45,719 nt of DNA from Fervidobacterium gondwanense DSM 13020. GTDB taxonomy: Bacteria > Thermotogota > Thermotogae > Thermotogales > Fervidobacteriaceae. A program made the translations under genes and the position numbers. The notes under the pieces are model-generated. The model saw only the letters and a list, made by a program, of their open reading frames with translations, did not search any database and was not told where the DNA came from. This document shows positions 27,619 to 45,169 of the stretch, piece by piece (within the stretch, counting starts at the first letter, position 1; the number at the start of each line of letters is the position of its first letter). Location of the stretch: positions 1-45,719 of the forward strand of contig NZ_FRDJ01000012.1 of NCBI RefSeq assembly GCF_900143265.1, read 5' to 3'.

Positions 27619-29478
27619 TCAGAAAACTAAATATGGTCGTTCCCCTCTTCTTACTCTTTCTATTCTACGCAATTTTTCCAAACTTTGTTTCAATCCACCA
27701 GTCCGATTTAATCTTAACCATATTCTTGAATACTCTTCAAGTATGTCTTCAAGATCCTTTTCAAATCTTTCCCATTCTTTGTCCTCAACGTTCTCTATTG
27801 TACCGTACTTGATAAGTAATTCAATAGTTCTAATTCCCATGATTGCGAGCTTCACATTATTGGCTATTTGTTCGACAACTTCCTTAAGATTATTGTTTTC
27901 CTTAAGCTTCTCTAATTTAAGAAGAGATTTGTTTAAGCTACTTTTCACATCTTCTATCGTCTTTTGTCGGAATTTCTGAGCATAATTCATCACATTTTCA
28001 GGATACAAGAATGTGTAGAAGAATGGAGTGCCATTAGGAGTGTATGGTAATCTATCGCAAATTTCCCCAAGTTCAAAAATTACATTACTTATTTCCTCTT
28101 TTGTTTCAAATACATGTATGTCTATTGCTCTAAGAACTTTCTCTATGCTGTCATCCAATGTATAGTTCCAGCTCAGTGCAGCCATATACGCAAAACCTAT
28201 CCACGAAAATGGTAGGTGCTGAGAATGACCATGGTCTCCCCAATCTGTTACTAAAACACCGTTAGCATGATATTTCTTAGCAGCCGATATCGCATTTTTG
28301 ATGTTCTCTATACAATTCTTGCTCCTGCCGATAAATGAATTCCAAGTTGAAGTACCTGGGCACACATAGAACGAAATGTTGCTTTGCTCGTACAATTTGC
28401 ACTTTTCATCAAATGGGTGGTCAGCCTCATATCCCCAAACCATAGCTATCATGTCTTTCGGTAATTCTTCAATCAATTCTGGGTGGTTTTCAATGATATC
28501 TCCCCAGAACATAACTGTCTGTTTGTGCTTTTTCGCTATATTATATACTTTCAAGAGAAAGTCAAGATACACACGTCCCTTACCTATCTTTTCGCAAAGT
28601 TCTTTAGATTTACCTTGACATAAGTCAAATGTCTCATCACAACCAATATTGACTTTGTTGCTCGAGAAATTTGGTAAGAGTTCCTGCAAAATCTCATCAA
28701 CAAGTTTGATAGATTCGGGAACAGCGGGAGAAAGCGAAAATGGTTGGAGAAATTTAGTGTCCCATGGTGTTTCAAAACCATCTGGTGCTTCAGCTAAATA
28801 TTTGTATTCGTCGTGTATGAGCCACTTTGCCATATGGCCAAAAGTATTCTGGTTCGGCACGAGCTCTATGTGTCTTTCTTTACAATATTCATCTAATTCT
28901 CTTACTTCTTCGGCGGTTAATGGAGAATATTCTTCCCAAACAACTCTGTGGTTCTTGTATGCAAATGTGTGTTCCATGTAGAGCTGTAGTTGGTTTATTT
29001 TCAAATGAGATAATTTGTCAACTAAAACTTTCAACGTATCCATTTTTGGTATTCTATCTCGGCTGATGTCGAGCATTACACCGCGGTTCAGTATGTCAGG
29101 ATAATCATGGATGTACAACTTTGGTAATTGTTTAGTCTCTGCCACATTTCTGAAGAGTTGTAAGAGTGTCTGGACGCCATAAAAAAGCCCAACATCATCG
29201 TTAGCGTAAATGCTTATTTCCTCTTCCACAAACATCTTGTACCCTTGTTGATCTACAACTACGTCTGGATTTACTGACAAATTAAGTATCAAAGCTTCAG
29301 TTCTATCCATTGATAATTCGAATCCTAATCTTCTTAGTTCTTGTCCTAAGAATTTTGTTAACTTATCAACACTGTTTGGAGCAACCTGATAAAAAGTCGT
29401 TGCAATCCTTGTACCAAGCCCAACATAACCGCTACATTGTTTCACAACTTTTGGATAAGGTATGAGAATTAATTCCAT
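27619..29478 (-). CDS. GH20 beta-N-acetylhexosaminidase
   Basis: 619 residues, no signal peptide. The N-terminal ~125 residues form the GH20b domain; the TIM barrel begins with NRGVMLDISRDRIPKMDTL near 130. NIGCDETFDL near 272 holds the Asp-Glu pair used in substrate-assisted cleavage, and MFWGDI and VTDWGDHGH follow in the barrel. The C-terminal ~180 residues are helical. It should release terminal N-acetylhexosamines from oligosaccharides or muropeptides in the cytoplasm. AGGGGGG precedes ATG; the start overlaps the end of the CobQ-like gene by 10 nt. Confidence 0.9.
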   Translation of the reverse strand: MELILIPYPKVVKQCSGYVGLGTRIATTFYQVAPNSVDKLTKFLGQELRRLGFELSMDRTEALILNLSVNPDVVVDQQGYKMFVEEEISIYANDDVGLFYGVQTLLQLFRNVAETKQLPKLYIHDYPDILNRGVMLDISRDRIPKMDTLKVLVDKLSHLKINQLQLYMEHTFAYKNHRVVWEEYSPLTAEEVRELDEYCKERHIELVPNQNTFGHMAKWLIHDEYKYLAEAPDGFETPWDTKFLQPFSLSPAVPESIKLVDEILQELLPNFSSNKVNIGCDETFDLCQGKSKELCEKIGKGRVYLDFLLKVYNIAKKHKQTVMFWGDIIENHPELIEELPKDMIAMVWGYEADHPFDEKCKLYEQSNISFYVCPGTSTWNSFIGRSKNCIENIKNAISAAKKYHANGVLVTDWGDHGHSQHLPFSWIGFAYMAALSWNYTLDDSIEKVLRAIDIHVFETKEEISNVIFELGEICDRLPYTPNGTPFFYTFLYPENVMNYAQKFRQKTIEDVKSSLNKSLLKLEKLKENNNLKEVVEQIANNVKLAIMGIRTIELLIKYGTIENVEDKEWERFEKDLEDILEEYSRIWLRLNRTGGLKQSLEKLRRIERVRRGERPYLVF

Positions 29479-30341
29479 ATTCTATCCCCCCTAAATAGAA
29501 GTTCTTTTATATAAACCATGTCTAAATTATCGCAAATGATCTTTGATATACATTCTATTTCACTATCAAGTTCATCTGTGAAAGATGATGAGTCCATGTT
29601 TTTCTCAATGTTTTTTGAACTCTTTCCAGCATCGTCTTCGTCTTCAAGATGGTGATCGATAAATGGAACAATACCAACAGTCCTAACTTTAGTCAATTTT
29701 TCAAGAGTCTTCAGTCCATCGCCTAAGTGTTCTTTACTGCCTTTGAATTTGTTTATGATGAATCCTTTGACAAGCTTTTGTTCAGCTCTTGATAGTAGTT
29801 TGTATGTTCCATATAGTGAAGCAAAAACTCCGCCAAGATGTATATTTCCAACGATTAGCACTGGTATATTAAAACTCTTAGCTACTTTCATGTTTACAAT
29901 ATCACCTTTTTTAAGGTTAAGCTCGACGGGACTTCCTGCACCTTCCACAATAACTATATCATGTTTCTCTAAAAGAGTGTTATACGCCTCTCTAATCTTT
30001 CTCCACAAAAATGTTTTTCTCCGATTGTAGTCCGTATAATGTAATCTTCCCAAGCTCTTGCCAAGCAAAAATACCTCACTGTATCCTCCGCCGACCGGCT
30101 TGATTAATACAGGATTCATCTCCTCAATTGGTTTAGTTTTAGCTCCAAAAGCTTGGAGCGCTTGAGCCCATGCAAAGATTTGACCGCTGTTGGAAGTAAA
30201 CGACACAGAGGAGAGGTTTTGAGACTTAAACGGTGCGACTTTGTAACCATTATTCGAAAAATATCTACATAGCGCAAGTGTGATTATAGATTTACCAACC
30301 GCTGAAGATGTACCTTGAATCATTAATGAACCTTTTTTCAT
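29469..30341 (-). CDS. CobQ/CbiP-like cobyric acid synthase lacking the glutaminase domain
   Basis: 290 residues. The first ~240 match the ATP-dependent synthetase half of cobyric acid synthase: IQGTSSAVGKSIITLALCR (P-loop), VAPFKSQNLS, MNPVLIKPVGG, VIVEGAGSPVELNLK, GGVFASLYGT and KGFIINKFKG. Normal CbiP is ~490-510 residues because a class-I glutamine amidotransferase domain follows. Here that domain is absent, while the last ~25 residues (CDNLDMVYIKELL) resemble the extreme C-terminus of full-length CbiP, so the middle was removed cleanly. The P-loop half could work with free ammonia or another amine source. It lies 13 nt after the DUF71 gene. Confidence 0.8.
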   Translation of the reverse strand: MKKGSLMIQGTSSAVGKSIITLALCRYFSNNGYKVAPFKSQNLSSVSFTSNSGQIFAWAQALQAFGAKTKPIEEMNPVLIKPVGGGYSEVFLLGKSLGRLHYTDYNRRKTFLWRKIREAYNTLLEKHDIVIVEGAGSPVELNLKKGDIVNMKVAKSFNIPVLIVGNIHLGGVFASLYGTYKLLSRAEQKLVKGFIINKFKGSKEHLGDGLKTLEKLTKVRTVGIVPFIDHHLEDEDDAGKSSKNIEKNMDSSSFTDELDSEIECISKIICDNLDMVYIKELLFRGDRIWN

Positions 30342-30354
30342 ATTATCATCTCCA

Positions 30355-31005
30355 TTAAAGTTGTTTCGCTCTAACTTTTAGTCGCTTTGCATTGTCGTCT
30401 TCGTAGAGCCCTTCAACGTAGAAATTAAGGGGAGAGCTGAATATTGGTCCGTCATAGACAAGCGTATGGTATTCACCATTCTCACCACAGATATCGACAC
30501 CGGATTTTTCAAGAATTCTATGTGTCTCTCTGTTCGTTAGTTCATTACCAAGGATTTCATCAATACCTAAGTTTTTCTTTACAGATACAATCAGAGCTCT
30601 AAATCCCAAGTTTGAGAACTCTTCTAAAATCACTTCTCTTTTCCTCTTCCAGAGAGGCTCTTCTACAGTAACATTATGAACGCTGCAAACTCTTTTTACC
30701 CAATCAAGATGCTCTTGTAAGTCAATATCACCGAAAATTCCGATTCCTCCTTTTGCGTGGTTACTTAAAAAATCAAGAAAGTTCTCTTCATAACTTTCCC
30801 AGCTGCTGCATCTTGTTATCAATTTTGTCCCTATTAATAAAGCTTGTTTTTCAAGTATATCTTTGCCAAAACCATGTGCTCTTGAAGAAGAACAGTCTTC
30901 ATCAAGCATAGTAAAAAGGCAATCAACTTTACCGTACTTTTTCATACCATAGTACAATGCTAAGGCAGAATCTTTTCCTCCACTCCACGATGCAAATACA
31001 AACAA
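30355..31005 (-). CDS. DUF71/COG2102 ATP-pyrophosphatase, B12-salvage type (Dph6-like)
   Basis: About 216 residues. ASWSGGKDSALALYYG at the start is the SGGKDS PP-motif of adenylating N-type pyrophosphatases, and GENGEYHTLVYDGPIF near 170 is the conserved DUF71 C-terminal motif. The eukaryotic relative Dph6 amidates diphthine with ammonia. Published comparative genomics linked a bacterial/archaeal branch of DUF71 to B12 salvage, which agrees with its place beside a CbiP-like gene and divergent from the cob operon. TTG at 31005 is chosen, 6 nt behind GGGGTG; in-frame upstream ATG codons lack ribosome sites. Confidence 0.8.
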   Translation of the reverse strand: MFVFASWSGGKDSALALYYGMKKYGKVDCLFTMLDEDCSSSRAHGFGKDILEKQALLIGTKLITRCSSWESYEENFLDFLSNHAKGGIGIFGDIDLQEHLDWVKRVCSVHNVTVEEPLWKRKREVILEEFSNLGFRALIVSVKKNLGIDEILGNELTNRETHRILEKSGVDICGENGEYHTLVYDGPIFSSPLNFYVEGLYEDDNAKRLKVRAKQL

Positions 31006-31166: not shown

Positions 31167-31194
31167 TTGTTCATTTCTGAAAATATTGTATAAT
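31167..31194 (+). promoter_or_regulatory. promoter of the cobalamin-riboswitch operon
   Basis: TTGTTC (31167-31172), 16-nt spacer, TATAAT (31189-31194). The predicted start near 31201 lies just before the aptamer. Confidence 0.75.
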
Positions 31195-31223
31195 GCTTTT
31201 TGAAAGTAAATAGATTTCACTCT

Positions 31224-31365
31224 TTTGCAAAGGGAACTTCGGTGAGAATCCGAGGCTGCCCAGCAACCGTAAGCGGGGACGAAAACCACAATATGCCACT
31301 GAAAGCTTAGCTTTTGGGAAGGCGTGGTGAGTAGGGTGATCCGCAAGCCGGGATACCTTTGCAAA
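31224..31365 (+). promoter_or_regulatory. cobalamin (adenosylcobalamin) riboswitch
   Basis: The closing stem is TTTGCAAAGG (31224-31233) with CCTTTGCAAA (31356-31365). Inside are the conserved core GGTGAGAATCC, then GGCTGCCCAGCAACCGTAAGCGG (given here in two halves, GGCTGCCC and GCAACCGTAAGCGG) and GCCACTG, the B12 box. It senses cobalamin in the nascent transcript and lowers expression of the cobT-cobA genes downstream when the vitamin is abundant. The expression platform is the following terminator hairpin. Confidence 0.95.
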
Positions 31366-31374
31366 TGGGGATTG

Positions 31375-31416
31375 TTTTTCCCGAAAGCTCGGGCTTTACG
31401 GGAAAATTTGTTTTTA
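31375..31416 (+). terminator. riboswitch-controlled terminator before cobT
   Basis: TTTTTCCCG (from 31375) pairs with CGGGAAAA (31399-31406) enclosing a loop that can itself pair (AGCTCGGGCT region), followed by TTTGTTTTTAATTT. Its position directly behind the aptamer identifies it as the off-state structure of the B12 switch. Confidence 0.75.
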
Positions 31417-31447: not shown

Positions 31448-32523
31448 ATGGAAATCACAAGGAAAGGCTTGAATTTCAACATTAATGCAACCTTCTCAAA
31501 TGAACTGAAAAGTGCTATAGTGAACCGACTTAACAACCTCACAAAACCCGTCGGAAGCTTAGGTTATCTCGAAGAAATCGCCCTGAAGATGGGATTAATC
31601 CAAGGAAAGGTTATCCCTGAGCTCCCAAAAAGGAAAGAAGTTTACGTGTTTACGGCAGATCATGGAGTAGCAGAAAATGGTGTTTCCGCATATCCGCAAG
31701 AGGTCACATATCAGATGATTCTAAATTTTCTCAACGGTGGTGCTGCAATTAACGTCTTTTCTCGACACGTTGGTGCAGATGTCTTTGTGGTTGACTCAGG
31801 TGTCAAAGTAGACGTAGACATTGAGCACAAAAGGTTAATAAAAGCTAAGATAGGCTACGGTACGAAAGATTTTACTAAAGGACCTGCGATGACAAAAGAG
31901 CAAGCTTATGCATGTATCGAGAAAGGTGCTGAAATCGCCGACAAAGCAATAGAAAAAGGAGCAGAATTACTTGTTGTCGGTGATATGGGAATCGGAAACA
32001 CAACAACCGCTTCTGCAGTAGCAGTGGCTTTAGGCTTTGGGCTTGACGAAATCTTAGATATTGGAACACCGTTGAATGAAGAAGGATTAAGAAAAAAGAA
32101 AGAAGCGATAAAATATGCCTTAGAAGTTAATGACCCAGACGCTAATGATCCGATTGATGTTCTGCAGAAGGTTGGTGGATATTGTATTGGACAGATGGCT
32201 GGGTTTATACTCAAAGCAGCTGAGGAAGGGTTCCCGTAATCATCGATGGTTTCCCAACAACAGCAGGGCTTTTAATCGCGTGGAAGATAAATTCGCAAGT
32301 TTTGAACTACGTATTCGCAGGACACAAATCAAAAGTCAAGGGACACAAAGTGATTCTTGATAAACTTGGTTTGAGACCAATTCTGGATCTTGATATGAGA
32401 CTCGGCGAAGGAACAGGTGCTGTGCTTTCCATTTCAATCATAGAAGCTGCGATCAAAATGATTCGAGAAATGGCGACTTTTGAAAGTGCGAACGTTTCGA
32501 AAGGAGAAGACCAACCTGTATGA
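31448..32523 (+). pseudogene. cobT: nicotinate-nucleotide-DMB phosphoribosyltransferase CobT, frameshifted
   Basis: The first frame (263 residues) contains VYVFTADHGVAENGVSAYP, GDMGIGNTTTAS and ends EEGFP then TAA at 32237-32239. The -1 frame then continues perfectly: VIIDGFPTTAGLLIAWK, GHKSKVKGH and LRPILDLDMRLGEGTGA, where the last holds the catalytic Glu, ending at TGA 32521-32523 and overlapping cobU by ATGA. Together they make a normal ~350-residue CobT, which transfers phosphoribose to the lower-ligand base. The break sits at TTCCCGTAATC: one missing G, or slippage of tRNA-Pro from CCG to CCC, would restore PVIIDGF. Without frame repair the product loses its catalytic Glu. Confidence 0.85.
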
Positions 32524-33026
32524 TTACATTGATAACCGGCGGGGTAAAATCTGGCAAGAGCACGTTTGCACAAAATTACATATTGAAAAAGCCCTACTCT
32601 AAGAGGGCATATATAGCAACAAGTGTACCATTTGACGATGAGATGAGAGAGCGCATAGAACGGCACAAAAAAGAACGCGGAACATTGTTTGATGCATTCG
32701 AAGAACCTGTGGAAGTACACAAAGTATTAAAAAAGCTCAGTGGAGGTTATGACGTTGCACTAATTGAATGCATTACGACTTATCTCGGCAATTTATTCCA
32801 TTACAATTACGACGTGGAAAACTACACTGAAAATCTGATCAATATCTTAGAGACTGTCGATTATGATGTTGTTATAGTCACAAATGAAGTTGGCTTCGGA
32901 ATAGTACCTGAAAACAAACTTGCAAGACAGTACGCAGAAACACTTGGAAAGCTCAATTCGAGACTTGCAGGCATATCAAACGAGGTTTACGTACTCTTCA
33001 GTGGGATTGAGGTAAGGATAAGATGA
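32520..33026 (+). CDS. cobU: adenosylcobinamide kinase / cobinamide-phosphate guanylyltransferase
   Basis: 168 residues. TGGVKSGKSTFAQ near 6 is the P-loop, AYIATSVPFDDEMRERIERHK near 29 contains the guanylylated region (His of RIERHK), and VALIECITTYLGNLF near 79 is the Walker B-like strand. The enzyme phosphorylates adenosylcobinamide and adds GMP, producing GDP-cobinamide for CobS. Length is normal. The start overlaps the cobT stop by ATGA, and its own stop overlaps the next start, so translation is coupled through the operon. Confidence 0.92.
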   Translation: MITLITGGVKSGKSTFAQNYILKKPYSKRAYIATSVPFDDEMRERIERHKKERGTLFDAFEEPVEVHKVLKKLSGGYDVALIECITTYLGNLFHYNYDVENYTENLINILETVDYDVVIVTNEVGFGIVPENKLARQYAETLGKLNSRLAGISNEVYVLFSGIEVRIR

Positions 33027-33673
33027 GCACAGCGAACAAGCAACTTATTGGTAGCACCTCTTGGGTCATACCTGGAACATACTACGAGAATGCAAGGATT
33101 TTGGCACATTTAGTTGACTTTGTTGAACTGTTGGTCTATACATGGGACGATGAAACCAAGGAGCTTTTAGAAAAGGAAGCTAAATATTTAGCAAAACTAA
33201 CCGGGAAGTATGGTCTGAAATATACTGTCCACTTGCCAACAAACAATGTAGAAAACATGATTAGTGCTTACAATTTTCTGAGGAAATCAGATTTGGAAAT
33301 TCTGAATTATGTAGTGCATCCAATAGATGGCATAAGTGAGTTTATTAAAGTTGCAAGCAAAGATGTTTCGGTTGAGAACTTGAAGGAAAAGGTCTTGCCC
33401 TACGAAAAGATGACTTTTGATGTTGGGCACCATTTTCTTGGTGAAAGATTCCCAATGGAGTTGATTGATAAAATAAACGAAATTCACATGATGGGTGTGC
33501 ACAGTGGAAAAGACCACGAAAAGCTTGATAAAAAAACGCTTGAAGATGTTATCAACTTTTTAGGAAGAAGGAGAATCTCTGAAATCAGTCTTATATGCTT
33601 TGAGATTTTCAATTTAGATGACTTAATAGACTCTATAACACTATTTGAGCGAACTGTTCTTAAAACAAAATAG
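33023..33673 (+). CDS. TIM-barrel protein, candidate cobamide-remodelling phosphodiesterase CbiR
   Basis: 216 residues of the xylose-isomerase/AP-endonuclease-2 barrel type. Metal-ligand candidates occur in barrel order: YTVHLPTNN near 72, NYVVHPIDG near 95, MTFDVGHHFLG near 133, EIHMMGVHSGKDHEK near 154 and SLICFEIFN near 192. CbiR, described from Akkermansia, is a cobamide phosphodiesterase in this superfamily found beside cob genes; it cuts off the lower ligand so that cobU/cobS can rebuild the molecule. Location between cobU (overlapping ATGA) and cobS strongly supports that role, but sequence identity could not be checked. Confidence 0.65.
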   Translation: MSTANKQLIGSTSWVIPGTYYENARILAHLVDFVELLVYTWDDETKELLEKEAKYLAKLTGKYGLKYTVHLPTNNVENMISAYNFLRKSDLEILNYVVHPIDGISEFIKVASKDVSVENLKEKVLPYEKMTFDVGHHFLGERFPMELIDKINEIHMMGVHSGKDHEKLDKKTLEDVINFLGRRRISEISLICFEIFNLDDLIDSITLFERTVLKTK

Positions 33674-33693: not shown

Positions 33694-34428
33694 ATGGTGT
33701 TCGTGAGAGAGTTTATGATAGCTTTGAGCTTTATATCTCGTATACCCGTTAACATGAAGGGATATCAGTTAGACGCTGGAGATATTCGGAAAGTACCAAA
33801 ATATTTCTCTATTGTTGGATACCTCATTGGAAGTATCTATCTATCGGGGGCGACATTAAGCAGGCTTATTCCCAACGTAGGTGGAAGTTTATTAGTCAAA
33901 GTAATTTCAATTGCAGCAGGTTTTTATCTTTTCGATCTTTTTCACTTTGATGGACTTCTCGACATGTTCGACGGTTTTTTGAACCAGTCGAATGCTGAAA
34001 GAAGACTCGAAATAATGTCGAAAGGAAATGTTGGACCTTTTGCTGTTTTTTATGGCACGTTATACGTTATCGTCTTTTATCAACTATTTTCTCTTGTTCC
34101 ACCATACGCTCTGTTATTTTCTTCTGTCTTTGGACGATTAACGATGACTCTTTTAATTCTTTTCTCTAAACCTGCAAAGAACAAAGGGCTTGGTGCATTA
34201 CTTTATCCAACGAGCAAAAGAAATCTCGTTGGAATCCTATTTACGCTTCCTTTAATTTTTTTGAGCTACGTGGGATACGTTTTGTCATTGTTAATTGCTA
34301 TCAGTGTAGCAATCGTGGTTAATTCAATATCCGAAAGAAAAATCGGTGGAGTTACGGGCGATGTCATTGGGGGTACTTGTTTGATTGCACAGTTATTCAT
34401 TTTACTTGCTTTCTCAATTTTTGATTAA
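33694..34428 (+). CDS. cobS: adenosylcobinamide-GDP ribazoletransferase
   Basis: A 244-residue membrane protein with about six helices. FFLFDLFHFDGLLDMFDGF-type sequence is present near 83 (YLFDLFHFDGLLDMFDGFLN, split at the membrane edge), the CobS signature with Mg-binding Asp residues, and GRLTMTLLILFSKPAK and GGVTGDVIGGTCLIAQ complete the family pattern. It joins GDP-cobinamide to alpha-ribazole (phosphate), the last joining step of cobamide synthesis, at the inner membrane. Ribosome site GCAGGGGGC is before ATG at 33694. Confidence 0.93.
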   Translation: MVFVREFMIALSFISRIPVNMKGYQLDAGDIRKVPKYFSIVGYLIGSIYLSGATLSRLIPNVGGSLLVKVISIAAGFYLFDLFHFDGLLDMFDGFLNQSNAERRLEIMSKGNVGPFAVFYGTLYVIVFYQLFSLVPPYALLFSSVFGRLTMTLLILFSKPAKNKGLGALLYPTSKRNLVGILFTLPLIFLSYVGYVLSLLIAISVAIVVNSISERKIGGVTGDVIGGTCLIAQLFILLAFSIFD

Positions 34429-34471: not shown

Positions 34472-35398
34472 ATGTTCCTTTGGGATAATACAATTGATAA
34501 TGTAATTTCACTAACTATTGCTGTCACATTTGACATAATTTTCGGAGAATATCCAACAGCCATTCATCCGGTTGTATACTTTGGATTTCTAAGTAAGTTT
34601 TTTGACAAGCACACTCAAAGATGCAGTAGCGCTTCCGAAAGATTTGTTTTAGGAATGGTCTCAGAAATTTTCGAAATTTCGTTTTGGCTGAGCATAATAT
34701 TTTTTGTTCTTGGTTTAAGATCTAATTATTACCTTATCTACATAGTACTGTGTTCTTACCTTACTAAATCAACCTTTGCAATTAAGAGCCTTTATACGCA
34801 TGTTGAAAGATGTAATGTAGAAGATGAAAAAATCTTAAGGCAAAATGTTTCCATGATTGTTAGCAGAGATACAAGAAACTTATCAAAGCAGCATCTCTAC
34901 TCGGCAGCACTCGAAAGCTTAGCAGAGAATTTCAATGATTCAGTTGTAGCGCCCATTTTCTATTTTTTGCTATTCGGTTTGCCTGGTGCTGTGGTCTATA
35001 GAATAATTAACACATACGATGCGCTGTTTGGGTACAGAAATCAAACGTATGAATGGTTTGGGAAACTTCCAGCAAGGCTTGATGATGTTGCAAACTACAT
35101 TCCCGCAAGATTAAGTGCACTGATTATTTCACTGTTCAATTTTCGTAATGCTCTCAAATACATCAAGCTCTACGGGAGATTGAAAATAAACGGCACTTAT
35201 CCGATGAGTGCGTTTGCCGGCGTACTGAGCGTTGGATTTGAAAAAATCGGTATGTATAGATTTGAAGGGAAACTTCCAGAAAAGAGTGATTTGAAGCGTG
35301 GATTGAAGCTGTATAAAAACATTTGCTCATTATGGTTATTCATAGTCTTTCTTTCTTATGCAGTGAGAATATTACTCAACGCTGGGGGCGTCATATGA
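34472..35398 (+). CDS. cbiB: adenosylcobinamide-phosphate synthase
   Basis: A 308-residue membrane protein. FDIIFGEYPTAIHPVVYFG near 21 corresponds to the CbiB signature (D-x-x-x-G-[DE]-P-x-x-x-HPV), with IVSRDTRNLS near 130, ALESLAENFNDSVVAPIFYF near 147 and GAVVYRIINTYDALFGYRN near 173. It attaches aminopropanol (phosphate) to cobyric acid. It follows cobS by 43 nt and its stop overlaps the cobD start by ATGA. Confidence 0.93.
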   Translation: MFLWDNTIDNVISLTIAVTFDIIFGEYPTAIHPVVYFGFLSKFFDKHTQRCSSASERFVLGMVSEIFEISFWLSIIFFVLGLRSNYYLIYIVLCSYLTKSTFAIKSLYTHVERCNVEDEKILRQNVSMIVSRDTRNLSKQHLYSAALESLAENFNDSVVAPIFYFLLFGLPGAVVYRIINTYDALFGYRNQTYEWFGKLPARLDDVANYIPARLSALIISLFNFRNALKYIKLYGRLKINGTYPMSAFAGVLSVGFEKIGMYRFEGKLPEKSDLKRGLKLYKNICSLWLFIVFLSYAVRILLNAGGVI

Positions 35399-36420
35399 GC
35401 GTTTTTCATGGTGGAATAAACAAAGAAACTATAATTGATTTTTCAGTTTCAATCAATCCTTTAAAACCCGATTTTTTGAAGGGTATATTTAAACTTGGTG
35501 AGGAGTACTCATCGAAATACACTTATATAGAATGGCTTGAAGAGGATTTTAAAAATGTCTTTGGTGAAGATTGCGAAATCTTCGCCGGAGCTACTGAGGT
35601 TTTGCAAATTATCGGCTTCAAATCGCTTGAAGATGCTGAGGTAATCATTCCAACTCCAAATTACGGAGAATACGAACGCGTTGCACAATTTAATGAAAAC
35701 AAAATATATAAAGTTAGTATAGTCGATTTTGACAACCGTCGATTAGATTACGAACGAATCCTTCGGCTGTCAAAAAAGATTAGAACAAAGAGTAGAAAAA
35801 AGATGTATGTCATGTTGAGCAACCCGAACAATCCAACGGGCATTTATGCAGAACTCGATGATTTAGTTCGGGAATTAGAAAACTATGGTGTGACATGCAT
35901 AATTGATGAATCCTTTATAGACTTTGTATCCGAAGAGTTAAAGGGAAAATATAATTTAGACAACTTTGAAAATGTTATTCGTATAAGAACATTTACGAAA
36001 ATTCTCGGGTATCCGGGAATAAGGATTGGATATGCCAAAAGCAAGAAATTTTCTGAATTTCTTAAACAATACCGAAGTCCGTGGGGCGTTGGTTCTCTTG
36101 GTTACCTTGCAATTCAAGAGATTATTAAGAATTACAGCAAATTCCTTGAATTCAAGGTATTAACCCAGAGATATATCTCTCAAGAACGTGAACGGTTTCA
36201 AAGGTACGCTTACTTTCCTTCAAGTGTAAACTACTTTGTTATTAAGGTTGGAAACAGCTTTGATAATACCAAAGAGTTTTTGAATTTCATCAACAATAAT
36301 GGAATGCACGTGCGGACTATGTACGATTTTGGAATGGAATCTTTTGTAAGGATCGGACTAAAGAACGCTAATGAAAATGCAAAACTAATTCAAAAACTTG
36401 TGGAATGTAGAAAAGAATGA
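35395..36420 (+). CDS. cobD: CobD-like threonine-phosphate decarboxylase (class II-type aminotransferase fold)
   Basis: 341 residues from ATG 35395, which overlaps the cbiB stop and follows GGGGGCG. It begins VFHGGINKETIIDFSVSINP, as CobD proteins do (HGG then DFS.N.NP). LSNPNNPTG near 142, CIIDESFIDF near 168 and TFTKILGYPGIRIGY near 200, with the PLP Lys and the phosphate-binding Arg, follow. It makes aminopropanol phosphate from threonine phosphate for CbiB. An in-frame earlier ATG at 35323 lies inside cbiB and is unlikely. Related histidinol-phosphate aminotransferase activity is the alternative, disfavoured by context. Confidence 0.88.
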   Translation: MSVFHGGINKETIIDFSVSINPLKPDFLKGIFKLGEEYSSKYTYIEWLEEDFKNVFGEDCEIFAGATEVLQIIGFKSLEDAEVIIPTPNYGEYERVAQFNENKIYKVSIVDFDNRRLDYERILRLSKKIRTKSRKKMYVMLSNPNNPTGIYAELDDLVRELENYGVTCIIDESFIDFVSEELKGKYNLDNFENVIRIRTFTKILGYPGIRIGYAKSKKFSEFLKQYRSPWGVGSLGYLAIQEIIKNYSKFLEFKVLTQRYISQERERFQRYAYFPSSVNYFVIKVGNSFDNTKEFLNFINNNGMHVRTMYDFGMESFVRIGLKNANENAKLIQKLVECRKE

Positions 36421-36431
36421 TGGGAGGCATA

Positions 36432-36944
36432 ATGATGGGGTTTGTGCATGTTTATACAGGTAATGGTAAAGGTAAGACAACAGCAGCATTTGGCCAGGCA
36501 CTTAGAGCCGCATGTGCAGGTATGAATGTTTTTATCGGGCAATTTATAAAGGGTATGAAATACACCGAACTTGACGTAGAAAGATATATCCCAAACATTA
36601 CTATCGAACAGTTCGGACGAGATTGCTTTATCAAAAGAAATCCTGATAAAATCGATATAGAACTTGCTCAAAAAGGGTTTGAAAAAGTAAAAAATTTCAT
36701 TCTCAATGGAACATACGATTTAGTTATTCTTGACGAGTTAAACGTAGCAATTTATTATGGTCTCATCCCAGTTAGCCAAGTGCTTGAACTGTTGGAAAAA
36801 CGCGATAAAGACGTCGAGATTATAATTACGGGAAGATATGCTCCAAATGAACTTTTGGAATACGCTGATCTGGTTACTCAGATGAGAGAGGTTAAGCATT
36901 ATTATACAAAAGGTATCATGGCAAGGAAAGGTATAGAATTTTAA
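36432..36944 (+). CDS. cobA: cob(I)alamin adenosyltransferase (CobA/BtuR type)
   Basis: About 170 residues. GFVHVYTGNGKGKTTAAFGQ at the start carries the P-loop for ATP; GQFIKGMKYTELDVE, YDLVILDELNVAIYYGL and ITGRYAPNELLEYADLVTQM are the remaining CobA signatures. It transfers the adenosyl group to reduced corrinoids. ATG 36432 or 36435 fits the GGGAGG at 36422-36427; ATG 36417 overlaps the cobD stop. It ends the B12 operon; no hairpin terminator was seen in the AT-rich stretch after it. Confidence 0.92.
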   Translation: MMGFVHVYTGNGKGKTTAAFGQALRAACAGMNVFIGQFIKGMKYTELDVERYIPNITIEQFGRDCFIKRNPDKIDIELAQKGFEKVKNFILNGTYDLVILDELNVAIYYGLIPVSQVLELLEKRDKDVEIIITGRYAPNELLEYADLVTQMREVKHYYTKGIMARKGIEF

Positions 36945-37015: not shown

Positions 37016-37037
37016 CAAATTAGAAAAGTGAATAATT

Positions 37038-37135
37038 TCCCGAAGGGGAGCTCCATACAGCGGGGCTGAGAGGAAGGAGGCAATCCTTCGACCCTATGAA
37101 CCTGATCCGGGTAATACCGGCGGAGGGATTCGGGA
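37038..37135 (+). promoter_or_regulatory. TPP riboswitch (THI element)
   Basis: The closing stem is TCCCGAA (37038-37044) with TTCGGGA (37129-37135). The core GGGGAGC, GCGGGGCTGAGAGG, ACCCTATGAACCTGATCC and GGGTAATACCGGCGGAGGGA is an almost perfect thi-box. It binds thiamine pyrophosphate and should switch off the thi4-thiC-thiDN transcript through the terminator behind it. Confidence 0.97.
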
Positions 37136-37178
37136 GAAAGATTCTAAAGAATTTTAATTAGTGTAAAAAAAGCAGAAT

Positions 37179-39377: not shown

Positions 39378-39398
39378 AGAAAAGAGGTAGTGGGCTTA

Positions 39399-40175
39399 TT
39401 GAAGAAGAAAATGAAAAGAAAATGTATATCTACAAGCTTGATCAGGGCGAATAAAGAATTGATTTACACGTTGCCATATGCGAAGCACTACGAGCTCACA
39501 TTTTTCAAAAGTGAGGATATAGAAATCATCCAAAGATTCTTGAATGAACGTAACTCAACATTTGGTATACATGCACCATTTATATTCCGGTACAAAGAAA
39601 TTCACCCAAATCCAACTTCTCTAAATGATGAACTAAGAGATGATACATTCAAGAAGAATATCGAATGTGCTCATCTTGCGAAAAACATGGGAGCGCAATA
39701 CATTGTCATCCATTATCCAAACGCAATGCAAAAAGAAGACTGGAGAGCCGAGAAAAAGGTTGTAGATAGTTCCACTAAACACTTAACCGAGCTGAGAGAG
39801 ATTATAGACATTCGGATTGAGAACGTATACTTCAACGATAGCTTCCACTCAGCAGAAGATTTTTCATGGTTGCTTAAAGAGTCAAACGCTACACTTTGCT
39901 TAGATATAGGGCACTTGCTCTTAGATAGTGAACAGTACGAATTTGATGTTGTTAAGTTTATAGACACTCTCGAAGAGTATATTTCAGAAGTTCATATATA
40001 CTATGCTGATATTGAAACATACCAAAAATGCCACCATGCACCGTGGGGGGATTCAAAAGAATTTCTAAGACTTCTCGACAGAATAAGGTACTTAGACTGT
40101 GATTTCACAATAGAGGCTTCAAATGATTGCAAATCTGGACTCGAGAAACTTTTCGAATACTGGGAGGGATTATGA
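39399..40175 (+). CDS. xylose-isomerase-like TIM-barrel protein in thiamine operon, function unknown
   Basis: About 258 residues with a basic start. Barrel-end motifs: FGIHAPFIF near 48, YIVIHYPNAM near 100, IRIENVYFND near 140, TLCLDIGHLLLD near 165, EVHIYYADI near 194 and DFTIEASND near 236, giving the His/Glu/Asp/His/Glu metal set of PF01261 enzymes. The layout parallels the CbiR-like protein at 33023 (HxP, D[VI]GH, [IV]H, late Glu). It lies 21 nt after thiC and its stop overlaps thiD-thiN, so a thiamine-related isomerase or phosphodiesterase role is inferred. TTG 39399 is chosen behind AAGAGG; GTG 39390 is possible. Confidence 0.65.
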   Translation: MKKKMKRKCISTSLIRANKELIYTLPYAKHYELTFFKSEDIEIIQRFLNERNSTFGIHAPFIFRYKEIHPNPTSLNDELRDDTFKKNIECAHLAKNMGAQYIVIHYPNAMQKEDWRAEKKVVDSSTKHLTELREIIDIRIENVYFNDSFHSAEDFSWLLKESNATLCLDIGHLLLDSEQYEFDVVKFIDTLEEYISEVHIYYADIETYQKCHHAPWGDSKEFLRLLDRIRYLDCDFTIEASNDCKSGLEKLFEYWEGL

Positions 40176-44963: not shown

Positions 44964-45022
44964 ATTTAAATTACGTTCTAATAGGTTAAAGAAACACATA
45001 AGTTTCTTGTGCCTATTAGAGC

Positions 45023-45143
45023 ACTCTCTCCCATCCGGACTTTCACCGTCGGCTCCGGAATTTCACCGGATCAACCTCTTAAAACATTCTAAGAGGCTCG
45101 CGGGCTTTACCGCCGGTCGGGAATTTCACCCTGCCCCGAGAGT
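45023..45143 (-). promoter_or_regulatory. FMN riboswitch (RFN element)
   Basis: Read on the minus strand: GGGGCAGGGTGAAATTCCCG, ACCGGCGGTA, AAGCCCGCGAGC, CCGGTGAAATTCCGG, GCCGACGGTGAAAGTCCGGA and a closing GAGAGAGT. All conserved RFN blocks are present. It binds FMN and should terminate the ribD-ribE-ribBA-ribH transcript when FMN is plentiful. Confidence 0.97.
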
Positions 45144-45169
45144 ACTCTTGATATGTGTATAGTAACTTC

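Follow-up and report, generated by a model that had tools for sequence, protein, structure and literature searches.

Introduction

Cobyric acid synthase (CobQ/CbiP) amidates side chains b, d, e and g of adenosylcobyrinic acid a,c-diamide and is generally taken to be a glutamine-hydrolysing enzyme. Among other amide-forming enzymes, the single-domain NAD synthetases use ammonia physiologically (PMC3376133), and in the DUF71 family a published survey describes a B12 subgroup (DUF71-B12) with the signature ENGE[FY]H in place of EGGE[DE]xE (PMC3541065). Here we describe a short CbiP, which we call CbiP-S, and its DUF71 neighbour on a stretch of 45,719 nucleotides from Fervidobacterium gondwanense DSM 13020 (contig NZ_FRDJ01000012.1, positions 1 to 45,719 of the forward strand; the whole of it is called the window below). 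Our best reading is that CbiP-S is a recurrent, ammonia-using variant of CbiP, employed here in corrinoid salvage.

A CbiP without its glutaminase domain

The two genes at the centre of this study are:

29469-30341, minus strand: CbiP-S, an open reading frame (ORF) of 290 aa with the synthetase half and the tail of CbiP and without the glutamine amidotransferase (GATase) domain
30355-31005, minus strand: DUF71/PF01902 PP-loop ATP pyrophosphatase of the B12 subgroup, 216 aa, with SGGKDS and ENGEYH; start codon TTG at 31005

When CbiP-S was aligned with 21 full-length CbiPs of the same phylum, residues ~1-240 corresponded to the ATP-dependent synthetase half and the last ~30 residues to the C-terminus of the full-length enzyme, while the GATase domain of ~200 residues that lies between them was cleanly absent. 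A domain search gave no match in the protein to GATase_3 (PF07685), which carries the Cys and His. The first-pass annotation, made from the sequence alone, had described just such a protein, with a complete synthetase half, the extreme C-terminus of CbiP and the amidotransferase domain missing, and the alignment bears it out and maps the deletion. The synthetase motifs are present (P-loop, PFK-x-QN, NP, EGAGS and GG). CbiP-S matches the cobyric acid synthase model NF001989 over positions 2-242 of 480 with 302.9 bits, passing the cut-off of 273 at half the model's coverage, and TIGR00313 over positions 1-242 of 477 with 273.1 bits, below the cut-off of 309.9. NF001989, a current annotation model, gives a protein of half length the label of a complete cobyric acid synthase, and this may explain why the short CbiP went unremarked. 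Our literature search found no earlier description of a glutaminase-free CbiP, although a prior mention may exist in the Thermotogales B12 literature.

The genome from which the window comes (G000) is 99.35% complete. It contains one CbiP-like gene, the short form, with no full-length CbiP, and neither CbiC nor CbiZ was found in it, so that the short form is its only CbiP and the corrin ring is not made. There is no dedicated glutaminase in G000 either, PF07685 matching only PdxT (beside PdxS) and PurQ (beside PurC), all four names being read from sequence. The first-pass annotation had named three findings that would tell against it: a separate glutaminase subunit, a full-length CbiP elsewhere in the genome, or a broken gene confined to one strain. 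The first two are not in G000, and the third fails because other genomes carry a conserved short form.

We think it rather probable that CbiP-S functions as a cobyric acid synthase without a glutaminase and uses free ammonia, in this organism for corrinoid salvage. Its dethiobiotin-synthetase-type domain would use ATP to activate carboxylates on the side chains of an adenosylated corrinoid, and the amides would then be formed with free ammonia rather than with ammonia channelled from a glutaminase. G000 has no corrin ring synthesis, and CbiP-S would there finish amidating scavenged corrinoids that lack some of their amides, yielding cobyric acid, from which CbiB and a CobD-like enzyme would make adenosylcobinamide phosphate (AdoCbi-P); DUF71-B12 would act in the same salvage arm by an ATP-dependent step. 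What we observe is the loss of the domain and its recurrence, the retained ATP-site residues, the gene context and the lack of ring synthesis and of other dedicated glutaminases; the activity, the ammonia donor, the identity of the substrate and the role of DUF71 we infer.

Distribution and repeated loss of the domain

Within the phylum our set comprised 103 genomes. Seven of them carry the short form (G000-G004, G075 and G076), and all seven have DUF71-B12 and CbiB and lack CbiC; CbiZ is found in none of the 103. The short cbiP lies between cobS and cbiB in G001-G004 and is followed by DUF71 in G075 and G076. The last of these also has a full-length CbiP beside a DUF71 cut by a Mutator-type transposase; at this site (L034:7000-11002) the transposase stands in place of the upstream part of DUF71, and the second, intact CbiP-S/DUF71 pair of the same genome lies within a salvage cluster. 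The ring makers G008, G078-G080, G054 and G061-G063 have full-length CbiP, as do a number of genomes that only salvage (G053, G065, G077 and others), and a salvage lifestyle is thus not enough to bring about loss of the domain.

A hidden Markov model built from the GATases of full-length CbiPs found no GATase ORF in the short-form neighbourhoods examined, which rules out a split gene with the missing half nearby. A broken gene is ruled out by conservation and by the low ratio of nonsynonymous to synonymous substitution (dN/dS), which is 0.07-0.10 for the short gene between G075 and G076, a rough value since dS is high and near saturation.

In a maximum-likelihood tree of the synthetase half the seven short forms of the phylum fall in three places, and forcing them into one clade costs 71.5 log units and is rejected by the approximately unbiased (AU) test (p-AU 0.0011). 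A wider tree of 50 rows from many phyla rejects the grouping of every short form into a single clade (p 0.004), and likewise that of the bacterial ones (p 0.002); some of the branches concerned are long. The AU tests (p-AU 0.001-0.004) thus reject a single ancestral loss, and on the evidence of these trees the GATase domain has been dropped at least three times. The AU test does not reject a clade uniting CbiP-S of G000 with the short forms of Oscillospirales and of Tissierellia-type Bacillota (p 0.61); the window copy may therefore have been acquired by transfer. The repeated excision of the glutaminase half with the rest of the enzyme intact suggests that nitrogen for B12 precursors is taken straight from free ammonia.

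Short CbiPs in other phyla and in ring makers

A scan of named genomes found short forms of ~280 aa in Nitrososphaerota, an Oscillospiraceae metagenome-assembled genome (MAG), Neofamilia and Ezakiella, and in 394 Oscillospirales genomes three of roughly 87 CbiPs are short. One Oscillospirales short form (L070) lies in the order cobA-btuF-btuC-btuD-CbiP-S-DUF71 in a genome without CbiC, and another (L218) in the order btuF-btuC-btuD-PduO-like-CbiP-S-[DUF71 fused to CobA]. In the latter (L218:7855-9057, minus strand) DUF71-B12 is naturally fused to the corrinoid adenosyltransferase CobA/BtuR and overlaps the short cbiP by 4 nt. A further Oscillospirales short CbiP (L219:9052-9900) has Leu in place of Q40 of PFKxQN and no B12 genes nearby. 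In Nitrososphaerota the order is cobD-CbiP-S-cbiB-cobS-cobY.

The archaeal, Neofamilia and Ezakiella genomes with short forms have CbiC, and no CbiP other than the short one was seen in them. B12 synthesis can therefore very probably rely on a glutaminase-free CbiP that still makes cobyric acid, most simply from ammonia. Ammonia-oxidising archaea, which use the short form too, have been proposed as major aquatic B12 producers (PMC4303638), and N. maritimus releases cobalamin (PMC8281238). The one strong GATase_3 match in each of these ring makers is CbiA, as read from its DYIDP/DFIDP-type and EGVMGYYDG-type motifs.

Among 130 Ezakiella-family genomes, 29 have CbiA (L222-L250), and in 23 of these 29 proteins the GATase nucleophile Cys is replaced by Gly. 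CbiP was also found in 21 of the 29 genomes, where it is short in eight, Cys-dead in two (G577 and the eroded 435-aa protein of G510) and intact in eleven. CbiA is dead in all ten genomes with a short or Cys-dead CbiP versus five of the eleven with an intact one (Fisher p 0.012, shared ancestry ignored). Both corrinoid amidotransferases of this one Bacillota family thus apparently lost the use of glutamine, CbiA first, with intermediates visible in which the Cys and then the domain has gone, and ammonia would be their donor. Ammonia-rich lifestyles, such as ammonia oxidation and amino-acid fermentation, would fit the wider distribution.

It is improbable, in our estimation, that CbiP-S instead receives its ammonia in trans from the glutaminase of another enzyme, which would be CbiA where present and otherwise a housekeeping amidotransferase. 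The ammonia-oxidising archaea have a CbiA with intact Cys that could play this part, but G000 has no CbiA-type GATase, only the PdxT and PurQ matches, the Ezakiella-family CbiA is glutaminase-dead wherever CbiP has lost its GATase, and the residues altered along with the domain (see below) suggest that the coupling is gone.

Residues that change with the domain

The ATP-site motif residues (P-loop, lysine, EGAGS, ExN, N and GG) are retained in all short forms. Two positions that are invariant in 74 full-length CbiPs, and that we label N45 and E54, are changed in the window protein, where the equivalents are V46 and I55; nearly all of the other near-invariant positions are retained. Every full-length CbiP, even if Cys-dead, has E54, and so does each archaeal short form apart from L094; E54 is absent from every bacterial short form examined except the possibly artefactual L099. 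N45 is lost from the short forms of the phylum, from the archaeal ones and from some of the Ezakiella group. Since E54 is lost in bacterial short forms and kept in Cys-dead full-length CbiPs, the residue changes follow the deletion of the domain. Candidate roles for E54 and N45 are interdomain coupling, a metal site or the substrate.

Both exceptions deserve a word. The short CbiP of L094, a Nitrosopumilus MAG (MGR_bin428), is unlike the other archaeal ones and is the only archaeal loss of E54 seen. The 303-aa CbiP without GATase on a Chloroflexota contig (L099:6953-7912) keeps E54 and N45. Its closest relative (L130) has the full length, as has another CbiP of the L099 genome, and the missing GATase may reflect a recent loss or an error of assembly.

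The predicted fold of CbiP-S is of the dethiobiotin synthetase type (predicted local distance difference test, pLDDT, 82), with 1dbs and 1dts as best matches; searches of the PDB brought up dethiobiotin synthetases and GatD but no structure of a CbiP.

CbiP-S might also be what is left, decaying or without catalytic activity, of a pathway that salvage-only genomes have lost. In the phylum none of the seven genomes with a short form has ring synthesis, and the window copy carries D166N in addition to the two shared changes, as such a remnant might. We nevertheless hold this to be very improbable, given the low dN/dS, the open frames retained in seven genomes, the retained ATP-site residues, the fixed operon place between cobS and cbiB in G001-G004 and the dependence of ring-making lineages on the same form.

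Several points do weigh against a working, ammonia-dependent cobyric acid synthase. Bacterial short forms have lost the invariant E54, and catalysis could be altered. The E54 segment aligns with a region of BioD that presumably holds a metal-binding Asp, in an uncertain register (hhalign is off by three relative to the ungapped alignment). The CbiA of ammonia-oxidising archaea still has its cysteine and could supply ammonia in trans, and the association of CbiA with CbiP states takes no account of ancestry. Lastly, the substrates in G000 would be incompletely amidated corrinoids, and a natural supply of these to such salvagers has to be assumed.

The DUF71 partner

The DUF71 gene lies upstream of cbiP-S with a gap of 13 nt, as the first-pass annotation had it, and its assignment to the B12-linked bacterial branch also holds. 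The product matches PF01902 with 123 bits, its motif ENGEYHT is of the B12-subgroup type, and the gene clusters with B12 salvage genes. It is not identified as Dph6, scoring 86.1 bits against TIGR03679 (cut-off 197.3) and lacking the EGGE-x-E motif. The DUF71s of the archaea with short CbiPs are of the Dph6 type (EGGEAE).

DUF71-B12 adjoins short CbiPs in G000, G075, G076 and Oscillospirales and full-length CbiP in G008 and G053, and in G071 it occurs with CbiB and without any CbiP. Its presence in all seven short-form genomes of the phylum and its recurrence in Oscillospirales make a functional link with CbiP-S in corrinoid salvage likely. The co-occurrence has limits, for the ammonia-oxidising archaea and the Tissierellia-type genomes have short CbiPs and no B12-type DUF71. 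A DUF71 that replaces the glutaminase or donates the nitrogen is rejected, since some short CbiPs are found in its absence and some full-length ones in its presence. The earlier proposal of an ammonia-dependent or altered amidation consequently survives in part: what stands is a CbiP that has no glutaminase and probably uses ammonia, in a genome confined to salvage, and DUF71 as its enabler is not supported.

A different salvage reaction run jointly by CbiP-S and DUF71-B12, with CbiP-S no longer making the b, d, e and g amides, seems to us rather unlikely. Such a reaction, requiring ATP, might be a release or an exchange either at one of the amidated side chains or at the aminopropanol link; it would substitute for CbiZ and give CbiB its cobyric acid. 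It would agree with the lack of CbiZ in the 103 phylum genomes, with the presence of DUF71-B12 and the lack of ring synthesis in all seven short-form genomes, with the pair standing beside BtuFCD in two Oscillospirales genomes, once as the DUF71-CobA fusion, with the loss of E54 and often N45 from bacterial short forms, and with the anti-correlation of DUF71-B12 and CbiZ in bacteria that has been reported (PMC3541065). However, an E54-less short form is the only CbiP seen in the ring-making, DUF71-free genomes of Ezakiella and Neofamilia, and DUF71-B12 is also found beside full-length CbiP (G008, G053) and without CbiP (G071). For salvage-only bacteria we give a similarly low probability to a reading in which the two proteins are a new pair of enzymes that process corrinoids with ATP, either standing in for CbiZ or mending or re-amidating side chains that have been damaged; if so, the reaction would be one not known from either family. 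The CbiP-S/DUF71-B12 operon is a tractable place to find the reaction of DUF71-B12, a family for which our literature search found none assigned.

The divergent operon and other features of the window

Divergent from the DUF71-CbiP-S unit are the following:

31186-31377, plus strand: cobalamin riboswitch at the head of the divergent operon (Rfam RF00174, 96.3 bits)
31448-32239, plus strand: cobT (PF02277), with an apparent frameshift near 32226-32240 and the rest in another frame to about 32514
32520-33026, plus strand: cobU, adenosylcobinamide kinase/guanylyltransferase
33023-33673, plus strand: cbiR, cobamide-remodelling phosphodiesterase that releases AdoCbi-P (NF041277, 139.9 bits, cut-off 105)
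33694-34428, plus strand: cobS
34472-35398, plus strand: cbiB, adenosylcobinamide-phosphate synthase, which consumes cobyric acid
35323-36420, plus strand: cobD-like aminotransferase/decarboxylase (NF006225, 351 bits; TIGR01140, 134 bits, below cut-off)
36417-36944, plus strand: cobA/btuR, corrinoid adenosyltransferase

The full late-cobamide operon of the first-pass annotation is thus there, with the qualification that cobT is frameshifted: tblastn with an intact homologue splits over two frames, and the interruption is either a sequencing error or a real lesion. That reading had also overlooked cbiR. CbiR activity has been shown for the A. muciniphila enzyme, and since CbiR supplies AdoCbi-P separately from whole cobamides (PMC7733943), the cobyric acid branch would be the one in which CbiP-S and CbiB work. 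The cobD-like product is the presumed source of aminopropanol phosphate; its ORF as listed begins 76 bases inside cbiB, and the true start is probably later. For the DUF71-CbiP-S unit the Rfam search of the window found no cobalamin riboswitch on the minus strand.

Elsewhere in the window, a family 20 glycoside hydrolase gene (27619-29478, minus strand) overlaps the end of cbiP-S by 10 nt, so the transcription unit may extend into sugar genes. A thiamine pyrophosphate (TPP) riboswitch (37034-37146, plus strand) precedes thi4/thiC-like genes, a second CbiR-like protein (39390-40175, plus strand; 43 bits, below the cut-off of 105) is encoded behind the thiamine genes, and a flavin mononucleotide (FMN) riboswitch (45019-45147, minus strand) lies near the window end.

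Comparison with known systems

CbiP-S shares with glutamine-hydrolysing CobQ/CbiP a homologous synthetase domain, the ATP-site motifs, the C-terminal tail and the neighbours CbiB, CobD and CobS, and differs from it in having no GATase_3 and in the replacement of N45 and E54. The short CbiPs are in this respect a natural experiment on amidotransferases that abandon glutamine, one that names the residues changing with the domain. The window DUF71 resembles the described DUF71-B12 in its ENGE[FY]H motif, B12 gene context, occurrence in salvage genomes and link to CbiB and BtuFCD; in the part of that description available to us (PMC3541065) we did not find the pairing with CbiP, its recurrence with a glutaminase-free CbiP or the DUF71-CobA fusion. 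It has the DUF71 fold in common with Dph6, the diphthine-ammonia ligase that amidates with free ammonia, but not the EGGE-x-E signature. MurT is likewise an ATP-dependent synthetase without a fused GATase, yet it has a dedicated subunit, GatD, for which no counterpart serving CbiP-S was found in G000. The single-domain NAD synthetase (PMC3376133) is also a synthetase without a glutaminase that exists alongside glutamine-using two-domain relatives. Its fold is unrelated, however, and its single-domain form has been argued to be ancestral, whereas the glutaminase of CbiP has been lost repeatedly.

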